A stretch of 64,000 nt of DNA from Fibrobacter sp. GTDB lineage: Bacteria > Fibrobacterota > Chitinivibrionia > Chitinivibrionales > Chitinispirillaceae. The position numbers and the translations under genes are program-made. Shown here piece after piece: positions 204 to 56,056 of this stretch. The notes under the pieces are model-generated. The model made no database searches, had not been told where the DNA came from, and was given only the letters and a program-made list of their open reading frames with translations. Every line of letters begins with the position of its first letter. Within the stretch, counting starts at the first letter, position 1. The stretch is taken from contig JAAYPC010000120.1 in assembly GCA_012519985.1 (NCBI GenBank), forward strand, positions 1-64,000, written 5' to 3'.

Positions 204-1562
204 CTAAAGCTGAATCCCAAGTTCCTTAAGCTTTCTGGAGAGATTTGGTTGAGCCAGTCCGATAGAACGGGCGGTTGCTGTTATATTTCCGTTATGCTGC
301 TCCAATGCTTTTTTTAAGAACTGCTTCTCAAATTCGATTTTGGCCTGACGGAAATCGCAAACCGGCTTAATTAAGCTATCCATTGATCCAGCGGCTGTAA
401 CTCCGGCACTCTCTGTATGCTGCTCATCAATATCAGTCCAATCAATTTCGGTTGAATCAGTATATACAGCAACCCTGGTTATCAGATGTTTCAGCTCACG
501 GATATTTCCCGGATAGTGAAGCTCGCAGAGCCGTTTCTGTGCTGATTCGGTAAAATTTTTCTTAATTCCAAGTTCCTGGCAGACGTTTTTCAGAAAATGC
601 CTGGCAAGGGGGATAATATCCTCAACTCTACTGTCCAGCCCTGGAACATTGAGCACAAAGGCACTTATCCGATACCACAGATCATGACGAAACAGCCCCT
701 GAGCGACAAGTGATTCCAGATCCTTATGAGTTGCACAAATCAAACGGACATCCACCTTTGTGGCATTGGTGGCTCCCAGACGTAAAAGCTCCCCTGTTTC
801 AATAACCCTGAGAAGTTTGGCCTGAACCTGAAGATCCATGTCTGCAATTTCATCAAGAAAGAGAGTCCCTCCATTTGCCTGTTCCAGACAACCAAGTCTT
901 TTTTTATCTGCGCCAGTAAAAGCGCCCCGTTCATGTCCAAACAGTTCATCTTCAGCCAGAGTAACCGGTAACGATGCTGCATTTGTAGCTATGAAAGGTC
1001 CCTGGGCCCTGTTTCCTTCAAAGTGAATATGTCTTGCCAGAAGATCCTTTCCGGAGCCGGAAGGTCCGATAATTACTACAGGTTCTCTGACATTTGAAAG
1101 CCTTGAAGCCCGCTCATATAACAGTTTCATGCATCCAGAAACTATCAAGGGACGGTCTTTCTGCCTTTCAAGTAACTCTTTCTTTAAAACAACCCCCTCC
1201 AGTGCATTACGTATGCTTGTTCTTACCTGCAGCAGACGAAGTGGTTTCTCCAGAAAATCATGTGCTCCAATTTTAAAGGCCTCTTTAGCCAGACTTACTG
1301 TTCCATACCCTGTGATCATTACAACCGGAATGTGAGGCGTTCTGACCTTAACTTTACGAAGAACTTCAATGCCATTATCGGTTCCCAGCTTGATATCCAG
1401 AATCAACAGATCAATACCATCGTTGATTCTTTGAAGAACCTGCTCTTCATTTTCAGCAAGGCTGACTTCAAATCCATCTTCAGTCAATATCTCCTTAAGA
1501 GACTCTCTTATCTCATGTTCATCGTCAGCTATCAGGATTTTCATGTTTTCGAATTTTTCCAT
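204..1562 (-). CDS. Sigma-54-dependent NtrC-family response regulator
   Basis: Three-domain enhancer-binding activator of sigma-54 RNA polymerase. A receiver spans about residues 7-120, with the acidic pair D13/D14, phospho-acceptor D56, T84 and K106. The AAA+ domain has Walker A GPSGSGKD (166-173), the sigma-54 contact loop GAFTGA (213-218) and Walker B GGTLFLDEIA (231-240). A Fis-type helix-turn-helix closes the C-terminus. The length of 452 aa is normal for the family. It lies 2 bp behind the kinase gene, its presumed partner, as the last gene of a five-gene operon that itself starts at a sigma-54-type promoter. The start could be M1 or M7. The family call is firm; the regulon is inferred. 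Confidence 0.93.
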   Translation of the reverse strand: MEKFENMKILIADDEHEIRESLKEILTEDGFEVSLAENEEQVLQRINDGIDLLILDIKLGTDNGIEVLRKVKVRTPHIPVVMITGYGTVSLAKEAFKIGAHDFLEKPLRLLQVRTSIRNALEGVVLKKELLERQKDRPLIVSGCMKLLYERASRLSNVREPVVIIGPSGSGKDLLARHIHFEGNRAQGPFIATNAASLPVTLAEDELFGHERGAFTGADKKRLGCLEQANGGTLFLDEIADMDLQVQAKLLRVIETGELLRLGATNATKVDVRLICATHKDLESLVAQGLFRHDLWYRISAFVLNVPGLDSRVEDIIPLARHFLKNVCQELGIKKNFTESAQKRLCELHYPGNIRELKHLITRVAVYTDSTEIDWTDIDEQHTESAGVTAAGSMDSLIKPVCDFRQAKIEFEKQFLKKALEQHNGNITATARSIGLAQPNLSRKLKELGIQL

Positions 1563-1564
1563 TT

Positions 1565-2767
1565 TCAGCCATTTCCCACAAAATTTTGTTCCTCTGGAAT
1601 CTCATTTGCGACAACGAGGTTTGGATCGTAAAGCATTATTATGGTAACTCCATGTTTATCTTGATCGGTGCTACTTTGCAGCCGGATCGAAATACCCATA
1701 GATTGCAGCATTCTTTTTACCACCGGTAATCCCAGTCCTGTTCCCCCTTTTTTGGAGGTAAAATATGGGATCCATACCCTTTCACACACCTCCTCAGGTA
1801 TACCCGAACCATTATCAATGAAACTGATCTGAACCTTATCAGAAACTTTCTCTACTATGATGCGGATTTTGGATGCGCCAGCTTCCAGACTGTTTTTCCA
1901 CAGATTCAGAAACACTCTGTACAGAAGATGTGGATCGGCAGTTATCTTTGCATCGCCTTCAATGCTTAAGTCAACGGTTCCCAGTTCCCTGAACAGTGGC
2001 TTGCATATCTCCTTGACTGAAACTTCAACACACTGCGGCTCCGGTTCTCTTGCAAAGCTCCTGAAATTATCAACCAGCTTCTCCAGACTTATTACCTGAG
2101 TACCGATACGATTTACAAATCTACTGAGCTCACTATTTTCTATCCGACAACCATCATCAATTTTTTCCTGTATTCTGTCCAGAGATAGCTGAATTGGAGT
2201 CAATGGGTTTTTTATTTCATGTGCCATGACTCTTGCGATATCTCGCCAGGCCGTTTCCATACCCTGAGTGTGAGCCTGCTCCCTTAATTTTATCAACTCC
2301 TCCTGCATGATATCCATCGATTTTTCCAGTTTCCCCAAGGCTCCGGCGGATCCGCCCGGTATGGAGGCTTTTATCCCTTTTCCAATCTGCTCGGCTGCCA
2401 GAGCCAGCCTGCGTAAAGGTCTGGTCAGTCTGCGCAAAGCATAAAAAGCCAGGACCAGCAGAGTAACAAATAAAACGAAAGACAGGATTATCATTGCAAT
2501 GCATTGTTCTTCAATTATAATAGGAATGAGGACCTGCCATTGACGGTTTCTCTGAATCGCTGATCCGATAACCGCTTTTACAGAATCGTTTTCTGTAGAA
2601 AGAAATCTGCGAAGCAAACCTTCTAAATCGCTATCCACACTCTGCTGCAGAGTGCTTTGCAATTTACTTATATAGATACTTTGCAATGGGAAAGCAAAGG
2701 CTATAAGAACTACTGCGGCCAGCAGCAATATTCGCCACTCTATTTCAAGTTTCTTAAACAGATTCAT
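1565..2767 (-). CDS. NtrY-like membrane sensor histidine kinase
   Basis: Inner-membrane histidine kinase of the NtrY type, 400 aa from the chosen start. Two membrane segments (about 12-30 and 85-112) frame a small periplasmic region, followed by a HAMP-like linker. The phospho-acceptor motif is HEIKNPLTP with H183. The ATPase domain shows N292, DNGSGIP (318-324) and GGTGLGL (341-347). The start at 2767 was preferred over an upstream codon at 2872, because it lies 16 bp after the previous stop with a GGAAAAG-like ribosome site, whereas the longer form would overlap that gene by about 90 bp. It should phosphorylate the adjacent NtrC-type regulator; its signal is unknown. Confidence 0.9.
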   Translation of the reverse strand: MNLFKKLEIEWRILLLAAVVLIAFAFPLQSIYISKLQSTLQQSVDSDLEGLLRRFLSTENDSVKAVIGSAIQRNRQWQVLIPIIIEEQCIAMIILSFVLFVTLLVLAFYALRRLTRPLRRLALAAEQIGKGIKASIPGGSAGALGKLEKSMDIMQEELIKLREQAHTQGMETAWRDIARVMAHEIKNPLTPIQLSLDRIQEKIDDGCRIENSELSRFVNRIGTQVISLEKLVDNFRSFAREPEPQCVEVSVKEICKPLFRELGTVDLSIEGDAKITADPHLLYRVFLNLWKNSLEAGASKIRIIVEKVSDKVQISFIDNGSGIPEEVCERVWIPYFTSKKGGTGLGLPVVKRMLQSMGISIRLQSSTDQDKHGVTIIMLYDPNLVVANEIPEEQNFVGNG

Positions 2768-3343: not shown

Positions 3344-4261
3344 TTAACCCAGATTACCCAGGACCACTCTCAAACGTAATCCTGGATTAACAGTAACAAA
3401 ACTGTTGACAGATCCACCGAAGCCATTAACAGAAAGCAGGAAATGACTATTAAGATCCATACCAAGATGCCACCAGGACAATAAAGAAATGGTCATCCCG
3501 GCACGTAACTCCAAACCGACCTGTCGCGCTTTCGCTTCAGCTTCATTATCAAGATCCTCATTCCAGGCAACACCACCGAAAACATCTGCATCCTGATAAG
3601 ATTTGGTGACTTTCATCAAACCGCCACCAAATACCCCACCAGTTATGATATTTAATTTTTTATGAACAAAGACCTTCTCCACCATTAAACCACCAAACCC
3701 GGTGCGTATCTTCAGGGTCATAAGGGAGTCGGAGGGAGTGACATCGCTTCCAAAAAAGCACTCTCCGGTCCAACCCCCAAATCCAACCCTGACTCCATTA
3801 CCCACCCCACCATATAGCCACGCTCCATTGACCAGAAGAGGCGAATAACTATGATTTGTCAGGTCCTGAAAAACAAACTGTCTCAATTGAGAATCATGGC
3901 TGACCAGTTTATAAATCGGTTCTGTTCTAAGACCCAGAATCATTGGTTGAATGATGACTCCGCCCCCATATCCCTGCACTCTGGCTTTTGAGATACTGCG
4001 TTCTAATGCTGCCTGGAACCTTTTAAACTTATTGACAGTCAGCATAATTGCATCGATGGTATCGATCTGAGGGCTTTTTTCTTCACCGCTTAACTGACTT
4101 GTTGATTCATTCAGAACGGTTGAATCGTTTTTCTGCTCAGATAAGCCGGTATCGGTTTCCATGGTTATGCTGCTGTCAACCAGTGTATCTGTTTGCGCCG
4201 AAACATTTCCAGAGAAGCTGAAAATTAGTAAAACCTGAATAAATGCAAGGATTCTCATCAA
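3344..4261 (-). CDS. Secreted or outer-membrane protein, paralogue of the next gene
   Basis: Protein of 305 aa with a clear signal peptide (cleavage near NVSA-Q), then a Ser/Thr/Asp/Glu-rich linker and a glycine- and aromatic-rich domain of alternating strands. The C-terminus (FVTVNPGLRLRVVLG) closely matches that of the neighbouring 4283-5077 product (FCTVNPGVRLRVIFG), so the two are tandem paralogues. A small beta-barrel or surface protein is likely. No named family was recognised. It is the second gene of the sigma-54 operon, 17 bp before the DUF4390 gene. Confidence 0.75.
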   Translation of the reverse strand: MMRILAFIQVLLIFSFSGNVSAQTDTLVDSSITMETDTGLSEQKNDSTVLNESTSQLSGEEKSPQIDTIDAIMLTVNKFKRFQAALERSISKARVQGYGGGVIIQPMILGLRTEPIYKLVSHDSQLRQFVFQDLTNHSYSPLLVNGAWLYGGVGNGVRVGFGGWTGECFFGSDVTPSDSLMTLKIRTGFGGLMVEKVFVHKKLNIITGGVFGGGLMKVTKSYQDADVFGGVAWNEDLDNEAEAKARQVGLELRAGMTISLLSWWHLGMDLNSHFLLSVNGFGGSVNSFVTVNPGLRLRVVLGNLG

Positions 4262-4282: not shown

Positions 4283-5077
4283 TTACACAGATGTACCGAA
4301 AATAACTCTGAGCCTTACTCCCGGGTTTACTGTACAGAAATTTCCACTGCGGTTACCAAATCCGGATGAAGAATACTGGATCAGAGCAGAAAAGTCCATT
4401 CCCACATGCATCCAGTTAGTAAATGAATAGGTAGCCCCGCCATTAATTCTGAACGCCCAATAAGTAGCCAATGCAAGCTTCAGCCTATCCTCTTTATCCT
4501 TGCGTATAACATCCATCGGATAGTCATCATCGTCGTCGTCAAAATAATCATCATCGATGTCTCTGAAGACATTGTCAGCCTGCTTAAATTCAGCAAGTGC
4601 CATCAGAACCCCTCCACCGATCATACTTCCAACGTATACGTTTACATTGGGATTAAGCAGAAAGCTTTTTTCTACCATAAATCCTGCATGCGAGAATCCG
4701 ATGTGAAGCTCGATAACCGAATCCAGATATGCTTTCCCGTAAAGTTGAGCTGAAACACTGTCTGCAGGGCTCCTCCACTCACTACTGAACTCCGTTTTGT
4801 ATCCTCCCCATATACCCATACCAGCCCTGAATCCGTTGCGTTTCTGTCCTACATATCCGGCCGTGCCAAAGCTGACAAAAGTATTATTGTGCAGATCAAA
4901 CTTTCTTCCATCGAATTCTTTGACAATCTTTTTTATCGGATCAAGATCCAGATGAACTGCACCCAATTCGACATATCCTGAACCAGAGATACGTTCCGGA
5001 TCATCCACTTTTACATCAGCAAACAAGCTGAAAAGCAAACCGGCATTCAAGACAATTGATACGATTTTTTTATACAT
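4283..5077 (-). CDS. Secreted or outer-membrane protein, first gene of the sigma-54 operon
   Basis: Protein of 264 aa with a signal peptide cleaved near LFSLFA-D. The rest is rich in glycine, aromatic residues and predicted strands. It contains an acidic run of about ten Asp/Tyr/Phe residues near residue 180, a possible metal-binding or surface loop. It is homologous to the adjacent 305-aa protein in its last 100 or so residues. ATG 5077 was chosen over GTG 5083 because AGGAGG at 5085-5090 is 7 nt from the ATG but only 1 nt from the GTG. No function is known. Confidence 0.78.
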   Translation of the reverse strand: MYKKIVSIVLNAGLLFSLFADVKVDDPERISGSGYVELGAVHLDLDPIKKIVKEFDGRKFDLHNNTFVSFGTAGYVGQKRNGFRAGMGIWGGYKTEFSSEWRSPADSVSAQLYGKAYLDSVIELHIGFSHAGFMVEKSFLLNPNVNVYVGSMIGGGVLMALAEFKQADNVFRDIDDDYFDDDDDDYPMDVIRKDKEDRLKLALATYWAFRINGGATYSFTNWMHVGMDFSALIQYSSSGFGNRSGNFCTVNPGVRLRVIFGTSV

Positions 5078-5123
5078 CTGCACACCTCCTGATTATTGTT
5101 TGAAAAAATAATGCAGAGGAATA

Positions 5124-5139
5124 TGCAATTAACATGCCA
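5124..5139 (-). promoter_or_regulatory. Sigma-54 (-24/-12) promoter
   Basis: On the minus strand this reads TGGCATGTTAATTGCA, matching the consensus TGGCAYR-N4-TTGCW at every defined position, with the GG and GC at the required spacing. Transcription would start near 5113, about 35 nt before ATG 5077. The operon it serves ends with a sigma-54 activator gene, which supports the call. Confidence 0.82.
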
Positions 5140-5149
5140 CCTCGTTCAC

Positions 5150-5212
5150 TTCAGAATATCTCTGAATCAGCCATAAAAATGGCTTGTTTATCAGGGGTAT
5201 GCATTATGCATA
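5150..5212. promoter_or_regulatory. Candidate activator sites upstream of the sigma-54 promoter
   Basis: Three short dyads lie just upstream of the -24/-12 element: TTCAGA-N5-TCTGAA (5150-5166), AGCCAT-N4-ATGGCT (5169-5184) and the 15-bp palindrome TATGCAT-T-ATGCATA (5198-5212). The last is centred about 90 bp from the predicted start site, a usual distance for an NtrC-type upstream activating sequence. Which dyad is bound is not known. Confidence 0.5.
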
Positions 5213-5286
5213 TATCTGTTTGATATGCTTTAATATAATATTGATATGAATCAGGGTGATTAACAATTGTATGATAGATAAGAAGA

Positions 5287-5308
5287 CATGGAGGATTACT
5301 CCTCCATG
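5287..5308 (-). terminator. Terminator of the aldolase gene
   Basis: Perfect 9-bp stem CATGGAGGA / TCCTCCATG with a 4-nt loop, beginning 3 nt after the stop codon of the minus-strand aldolase gene. On that strand it is followed by a pyrimidine-rich stretch (TCTTCTTATC). Confidence 0.6.
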
Positions 5309-5311
5309 CAA

Positions 5312-6283
5312 TTAAGCCAGGTTTTTGACCGCACTGATATCGACTTCTGGAGTGGTAAGCATGTCATAGAACTTCACAAAATCATCTTTGTCAGGAGAAT
5401 CTCTGAAAGCGATTGCAGCTCTGGGATGTTCGTTAAGAACACCTGTAATCATATATGGAATAATGTACCCCCACTCAATTTTCTTGGAAAGAGGGAGATA
5501 ATGCTCCTGGATCAACTTGAGCACAGGACGTAAGTTATACTTTGGGTTTTGAAGAAAACTGAGAAGCAGCTCTATACAGCAGTTTCCAGGTCCTCTTCCA
5601 ATCCCATATACCGAGCCATCCACAAAATTAGCTCCGTCGATTATCGCCTGAACCGTATTGGCAAATGCCAGTTGACGATTATTGTGAGTGTGTATCCCTA
5701 TGATTTTTCCGGGAAGAGCATTTCTATACTTGTTAACCAGGTGGGTGACATCCTCACTATACATGGCACCAAAAGAATCCACCACATAAACTACAGGCAC
5801 TGAAGTCTTGCTCAAATCGTTTAGACCTTCATCGAGTTCTCTTTCAGTGTTGGTGGAAACGGCCATGATGTTAAGGGTGGTTTCATATCCTTTATCCATG
5901 ACCATATCACAAAGAGCAACTCCCTTTGTGATGTCCTTTACGTAACAGGCCACACGAATCATTTGGAAAGGGGATTCATTCTGAGGAGCAATATCTTTCT
6001 CCTGCACTCTTCCGATATCGACCATGCAGGAGAGTTTTGATCCTGATTCGATTCCATCAACGATCCTTCTTACATCTTCATCTTCGCAGAAACGCCATTT
6101 CCCATAAACAGAAGGGTCAAATTGTTCCTTTGAAGCCTTGTAGCCCAGTTCGATATAATCGACCCCGGCCAAACTCAGCGCTCTATATGTCTCTCTCACA
6201 AATTCATCAGAGAATTGCCATCGATTGATTAAACCGCCATCACGAATAGAACAGTCCAGTACTTTAATTTCAGGACGAAACAT
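5312..6283 (-). CDS. HMGL/DmpG-type (DRE-TIM) aldolase-family protein
   Basis: Protein of 323 aa with the DRE-TIM metallolyase pattern: LDCSIRDGG at 9-17 (the usual LRDG metal/base motif), VVDSFGAMY at 167-175, the metal ligands H198-x-H200 in GIHTHNN, and GIGRGPGN near 227-234. The family includes 4-hydroxy-2-oxovalerate aldolase, HMG-CoA lyase and the isopropylmalate/citramalate synthases. There is no C-terminal LeuA regulatory domain, so cleavage or condensation of a small keto-acid is likely but the substrate cannot be named. It stands alone, with its own terminator, downstream of citrate synthase on the same strand. Confidence 0.8.
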   Translation of the reverse strand: MFRPEIKVLDCSIRDGGLINRWQFSDEFVRETYRALSLAGVDYIELGYKASKEQFDPSVYGKWRFCEDEDVRRIVDGIESGSKLSCMVDIGRVQEKDIAPQNESPFQMIRVACYVKDITKGVALCDMVMDKGYETTLNIMAVSTNTERELDEGLNDLSKTSVPVVYVVDSFGAMYSEDVTHLVNKYRNALPGKIIGIHTHNNRQLAFANTVQAIIDGANFVDGSVYGIGRGPGNCCIELLLSFLQNPKYNLRPVLKLIQEHYLPLSKKIEWGYIIPYMITGVLNEHPRAAIAFRDSPDKDDFVKFYDMLTTPEVDISAVKNLA

Positions 6284-33592: not shown

Positions 33593-33772
33593 AATTACCC
33601 TCCTTAAAAGAGGTCCCTACTAAACATCTCTATAAGTTTAGTGGGAAGAATCTGAACGCAAGCTCATTTTTTTGACATTTTAACAATTCAATAGATAAAA
33701 AACAAGATAAAACCTGTTTTTTACCAGTAGCATGCAATAAAAATGCCAGATGCTTTCCTCATCAGCCCTCTC

Positions 33773-55759: not shown

Positions 55760-56056
55760 TATTCACCTCCCCCTGGGACAGGATAAAAAAAAAGGTCGTA
55801 TTTAGTTGAACCATACATTAAGATTTCGAATTGATCTGATACAACGTGAACATTTTAAGGTGTTTCAAAGTAGATCAACCGTTTCTCAAATAAAACAGAT
55901 TTTGGTCGAAGTTCAAGTCATTTAAACTGTAAAAGAACATCAATTATATTTAATTTTAGGTTTAACAACCGGAGAGTAATCGAGTGGCATACTACTTGCA
56001 GCACAGAAGCCAAAAAATTAAAATAACGAGAAAAAATATCACAGGAGTTGATTAAT

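Follow-up and report, generated by a model that had tools for sequence, protein, structure and literature searches.

NtrYX two-component systems are among the closest described counterparts of the operon reported here, which lies on the minus strand of a 64,000-nucleotide stretch of Fibrobacter sp. DNA (the window; assembly GCA_012519985.1, contig JAAYPC010000120.1, positions 1 to 64,000). With the NtrYX systems of Brucella, Rhodobacter, and Sinorhizobium NtrX it shares the order of kinase and regulator, the domain plan, and a site at its own operon. Regulation of their own operon by sigma-54 activators is already known. A link to the cell envelope (PMC7240162) and a palindromic site with a CANxTG core (PMC9223101) are further features in common. 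Predictions of sigma-54 promoters in front of ntrY-ntrX have been made for other systems (PMC12316311). Some published NtrX sites overlie transcription starts, and repression has been proposed for them (PMC9223101). The regulator described here, by comparison, keeps the GAFTGA motif, and its operon combines a sigma-54 promoter with sites located at enhancer distance. Further differences are a longer site (ATATCA-N3-TGATAT), outer-membrane barrel genes at the head of the operon, and an NtrX score of the regulator far below the curated cut-off (337 versus 600).

A second comparison is offered by Bordetella, where PlrP, a DUF4390 protein encoded next to the kinase, is reported to act as third component of PlrSR, a system of the NtrYX type (PMC13001219). 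In the operon from Fibrobacter sp., a small, exported-looking protein from a group with weak DUF4390 matches (p3) is likewise encoded immediately before the NtrY-like kinase. However, the relation between p3 and DUF4390 is weak, and barrel genes are found upstream instead of rsmB. Because the periplasmic loop of the kinase is short (about 60 residues, from the sequence), the PDC-domain contact proposed for PlrP would not apply unchanged here. The barrels resemble OmpA, OmpX, Ail, and OmpW in having a predicted 8-stranded barrel with a signal helix; they differ from them in the lack of a sequence family match (about 10% identity) and in their arrangement as tandem paralogues inside a regulator operon. 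The open-licence literature searched contained no description of a three-part system of the NtrYX-like kind that has barrel genes in its operon together with a defined 15-bp site and a TonB regulon. On the comparative evidence presented below, it is very probable that the operon's own regulator binds ATATCA-N3-TGATAT and thereby switches on sigma-54-dependent transcription of the operon that encodes it as well as, in relatives, of a TonB/outer-membrane regulon.

Gene Content and Conservation of the Operon

The genes of the operon are, in order of transcription, as follows.

4283-5077, minus strand: barrel 1 (b1), signal helix and predicted 8-stranded outer-membrane beta-barrel; ATG 5077 preferred over GTG 5083 as start
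3344-4261, minus strand: barrel 2 (b2), a paralogue of b1 with 30% identity
2784-3326, minus strand: p3, a small protein with an N-terminal helix and a mostly beta fold, weakly related to DUF4390 (PlrP-type)
1565-2767, minus strand: NtrY-like histidine kinase with HAMP, HisKA, and HATPase_c domains
204-1562, minus strand: NtrX/NtrC-like response regulator with receiver, AAA+ domain with GAFTGA, and Fis-type HTH

The structural model of barrel 1 (pLDDT 86) consists of a signal helix and an 8-stranded barrel, and its best solved matches in the PDB were OmpA, Ail, OmpX, and OmpW (E 3e-7). Barrel 1 is thus predicted to combine the OmpA/OmpX fold, eight strands, and a signal sequence, as is characteristic of small outer-membrane barrels. 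The initial annotation had spoken of envelope proteins, a label that the confident fold prediction for barrel 1 supports. For p3 the evidence is less uniform. Seven of 15 orthologues match PF14334 (DUF4390) weakly (E up to 0.1, best 0.0024), while p3 of the window has no PF14334 match. Alignment of p3 by hhalign with three external proteins of the same gene position gave no support for DUF4390, and a comparison of its fold with the PDB returned no informative match. The assignment of p3 as a DUF4390 relative is tentative. Comparison with relatives places the probable start of the kinase at ATG 2767.

The operon was described initially as ending with an NtrC-type activator, and the gene at 204-1562 indeed encodes Sigma54_activat and HTH_8 domains together with GAFTGA. 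With its receiver, its GAFTGA-bearing AAA+ domain, and its Fis-type HTH, the protein has the architecture of the NtrC class. It was not classed as NtrX or NtrC proper because it falls below both curated cut-offs, with 337.4 bits against NtrX NF051870 (cut-off 600) and 360.1 bits against NtrC TIGR01818 (cut-off 558.6).

Relatives of barrel 1 were found in 16 of the 61 genomes searched, the window genome counted, and p3 in 15 of 168 genomes of the phylum. Regulator orthologues, with 46-67% identity, are present in 17 of the 61 genomes, namely all 16 with barrel 1 and one more (G010), where the contig stops inside the kinase gene. Fourteen relatives retain the genes in the sequence barrel(s)-p3-kinase-regulator, and the operon as a whole is conserved in 15-16 genomes of the phylum. 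Searches of named genomes gave no match for barrel 1 and only distant activators of other phyla for the regulator.

A Sigma-54 Promoter in Front of the Operon

Two elements are relevant to the start of transcription.

5124-5139, minus strand: sigma-54 -24/-12 promoter element TGGCATGTTAATTGCA, full consensus match
5286-5309, minus strand: terminator-like hairpin after the same-strand HMGL-like gene

An exact -24/-12 consensus had been claimed for the minus strand, and this was confirmed by the TGGCAY-N5-TTGCW element at 5124-5139. Its placement upstream of the first gene also held, at a distance slightly greater than the 35 nt or so that had been given: the element lies 40 nt from GTG 5083 and 46 nt from ATG 5077. 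The latter start codon is preceded by AGGAGG at 5085-5090. The transcript would be expected to start at about 5110-5114.

Chance remains to be weighed, as a single 16-bp motif can arise without function and host-specific sigma-70 promoters may escape a scan; transcription of the operon would then depend on a sigma-70-type promoter or on read-through out of the preceding gene. The -24/-12 score of the promoter region was reached in none of 400 dinucleotide shuffles (p 0.0025). In genome-wide scans by pattern, strict TGGCAY-N5-TTGCW occurred 28 times, compared with two occurrences of the reversed-pattern control, and many of the 28 copies sit shortly 5' of open reading frames. Across the window and its relatives, each of the 15 loci for which upstream DNA is available has a -24/-12-like element ahead of the first gene (combined p 3e-15). 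Eight of these elements, that of the window included, are perfect or nearly perfect; in the remaining loci GGCA of the -24 box is kept and the C of the -12 box varies. Four relatives have a weak element (15.7 of 19.7), which in three of these is individually not significant. A transcript start elsewhere with a sigma-70 box had been named initially as one finding that would speak against the promoter; the minus strand was scanned for sigma-70-like sites between 5083 and 5330, and none was found. No known RNA element was detected within 4900-5700. The hairpin at 5286-5309 suggests that the operon begins in the gap after the HMGL-like gene, and it is read as no more than suggestive because the scan overall gave no more such hairpins than shuffled sequence. 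A chance match is therefore very improbable, and we conclude that TGGCATGTTAATTGCA is a genuine -24/-12 element. The genome encodes sigma-54 (rpoN; PF04552, E 8e-60, G000:C322) and about 16 sigma-54 activators.

The less strict pattern TGGCA-N6-TTGCW has three exact matches in the window, of which TGGCATGTTAATTGCA is one. Another, at 55985-56000 (plus strand), lies about 50 bp before a 234-aa gene that by eye resembles YugP-type membrane zinc peptidases, and the third, at 33733-33748 (minus strand), about 140 bp before a 113-aa membrane-protein ORF. Elsewhere in the genome, two sigma-54-like promoters (L001:160-302 on G000:C4, and L004 on G000:C41) have in common an upstream block of about 65 bp, TTCGTTTAGATATTTTC..CAGATTACTTCTGATT.GATATTGTTTTGATATT. 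This block is possibly an enhancer for another activator or part of a duplicated promoter. As judged by eye, one of the two promoters is located ahead of a lipoprotein resembling M48 peptidases, the other ahead of a polysaccharide pyruvyl transferase-like gene.

A Conserved Palindrome as Candidate Enhancer

The region upstream of the -24 box contains the following inverted repeats.

5150-5166 and 5169-5184, no strand: two dyads, the one at 5169-5184 not conserved on comparison
5198-5212, no strand: palindrome TATGCATTATGCATA, 7-bp perfect arms around one base, not conserved
5212-5226, minus strand: proximal palindrome copy ATATCAAACAGATAT, one mismatch to ATATCA-N3-TGATAT, 87 bp before the -24 T
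5233-5247, minus strand: distal palindrome copy ATATCAATATTATAT, one mismatch, 108 bp before the -24 T

The three dyads at 5150-5166, 5169-5184, and 5198-5212 had been noted before and are present. They had also been proposed as binding sites of the activator, the 15-bp palindrome included. In favour of this, all three lie close to one another on the upstream side of the -24 box; three dyads at such spacing are uncommon, occurring in about 1% of 60-bp stretches. Palindromes with arms of at least 7 and a gap of at most 1 number 18 in the 64 kb. The comparison with relatives covered two of the three dyads (5198-5212 and 5169-5184), and neither was found within three mismatches in any of 14 relatives. 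A genome search for the palindrome, which had been suggested along with the proposal, returned TATGCATTATGCATA as a single exact copy, with near-matches barely exceeding the control (11 versus 7). The dyads are therefore very unlikely to be the activator sites, and the palindrome at 5198-5212 is probably not the one. It was dropped as a candidate regulon box on the same grounds of absence in relatives and single occurrence.

De novo enumeration led to a different site. For each of the 15 loci, every palindrome with 6-bp arms and a spacing of 0-8 was listed within the 200 bp that precede the -24 box; in loci with weak promoters the best-scoring position was taken as the -24 position, and the search was anchored there. 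ATATCA-N3-TGATAT ranked first, with a score of 34.5 compared with at most 11 in 12 shuffle rounds. It was found with at most one mismatch in 13 of the 15 loci and with at most two in all of them, always 67-121 bp before the -24 T. The promoter is thus accompanied by candidate activator sites at enhancer distance. The two copies in the window are 21 bp apart and almost wholly outside the interval first proposed, the proximal copy overlapping the palindrome at 5198-5212 by a single base. Since the remainder of the upstream regions shows no clear alignment between relatives and window, conservation of the palindrome does not reflect simple shared ancestry. An IHF site did not fit, as judged from the sequence, with the palindrome centre varying and both arms kept. 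These ATATCA-N3-TGATAT copies, just upstream of the dyads, are the likely enhancer.

Proposed Assignment of the Palindrome to the Operon's Regulator

With about 16 activators in the genome and a link between regulator and site that is drawn from sequence comparison, another activator that co-occurs by chance could own the palindrome. In that case the promoter would depend on sigma-54, but the palindrome would serve another factor, either an activator or a repressor, and the regulator encoded in the operon would act elsewhere. One argument against this comes from a relative (G027) in which the operon is split, with the barrels on one contig and kinase and regulator on another. Both halves bear the palindrome and a sigma-54-like promoter, so that the site recurs on the regulator half. 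The site of the regulator half is divergent in orientation and also faces a perfect -24/-12 element before a gene with CarboxypepD_reg and Plug domains. These domains are typical of TonB receptors. On G027:C69 (L387:2600-2860), a single enhancer-like site is located between two oppositely facing sigma-54-like promoters.

Across genomes, the pairing of site and promoter also goes along with the presence of the regulator. Of 28 other exact sites in genomes that carry the operon, 5 have a strong -24/-12 element at 50-135 bp. The same pairing was seen at 0 of 21 sites in genomes without the operon and at 0.8% of random positions (p 3e-6). Four of the five paired sites precede ExbB-TonB or TonB-receptor genes. 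Furthermore, regulator orthologues share a conserved recognition helix, AQ[PS]NLSRK, which was not seen in the other activators read in the window genome. Published NtrX sites have CANxTG in common (PMC9223101), and the core TCAnnnTGA of the palindrome contains and thus fits this motif. Binding by a different factor is therefore improbable. The split operon, the association of site-promoter pairing with operon presence, and the conserved helix are the reasons for assigning the palindrome to the operon's regulator, which would bind it and act as an activator. The initial suggestion of a sigma-54 promoter driving two envelope proteins under autoregulation is strongly supported by this comparison, through the conserved promoter, the enhancer-like site at the proper distance, and the split operon of G027, and also by the confidently predicted barrel fold. 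That suggestion holds in its main lines, with its enhancer placed wrongly.

TonB Genes with the Conserved Site in Relatives

In three relatives (G024, G017, and G041), site and promoter lie ahead of an operon of the ExbB type whose large TonB-dependent receptor carries an N-terminal TonB_C domain. The gene order in G024, by Pfam, is ExbB, ExbD, ExbD, TonB, unknown, receptor. In L205:4181-7039, L206:2433-5249, and L207:3359-6178, where each ExbB-type operon has the conserved site, the TonB C-terminal domain was observed fused near the receptor N terminus, before the plug. Slightly degenerate versions of site and promoter precede ExbB genes in G004 and G027. In G032, one site is followed by the gene for a CarboxypepD_reg and Plug domain protein, and a second site by that for a DUF4097 protein.

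In the window genome, neither a second convincing site-plus-promoter pair nor an ExbB gene with the site was found. The three single ExbB genes retrieved from it are without the GGxxMW signature of the regulated ExbB genes. The regulon of the window genome may comprise the operon alone, or the remaining sites may be more degenerate.

Proposed Circuit and Its Significance

In the circuit that we propose, an envelope signal would be sensed by the NtrY-like kinase, perhaps together with the DUF4390-like p3, and the NtrX/NtrC-like regulator would then be phosphorylated. Regulator dimers on the palindrome copies at 5212-5226 and 5233-5247 would assemble into an AAA+ ring, which would loop over about 90-110 bp and remodel the sigma-54 polymerase at 5124-5139. 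The output would be both outer-membrane barrels and p3, together with the kinase and further regulator, resulting in positive feedback. In relatives, the same arrangement of site and promoter would drive TonB-ExbBD-receptor operons as well. As the outputs are outer-membrane barrels and TonB transport, a reasonable guess at the signal is the state of the outer membrane or a transported nutrient.

More broadly, and with somewhat less than even confidence, the data could reflect an undescribed phylum-level sigma-54 regulon, in which a three-part NtrYX/PlrP-like sensor system, encoded together with outer-membrane barrels, would use ATATCA-N3-TGATAT to turn on its own expression and, in many members, that of TonB-ExbBD-receptor operons. 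The barrels might then contribute to the signal besides being an output.

For envelope control, the circuit offers a binding site that can be tested, together with a regulator and target genes, and the site is predicted so precisely that a single purified protein would suffice to check it. It would tie NtrYX-type signalling to sigma-54 activation and TonB-dependent transport. Studies of the DUF4390 third component have dealt with proteobacteria, and the circuit tentatively extends its range beyond them.
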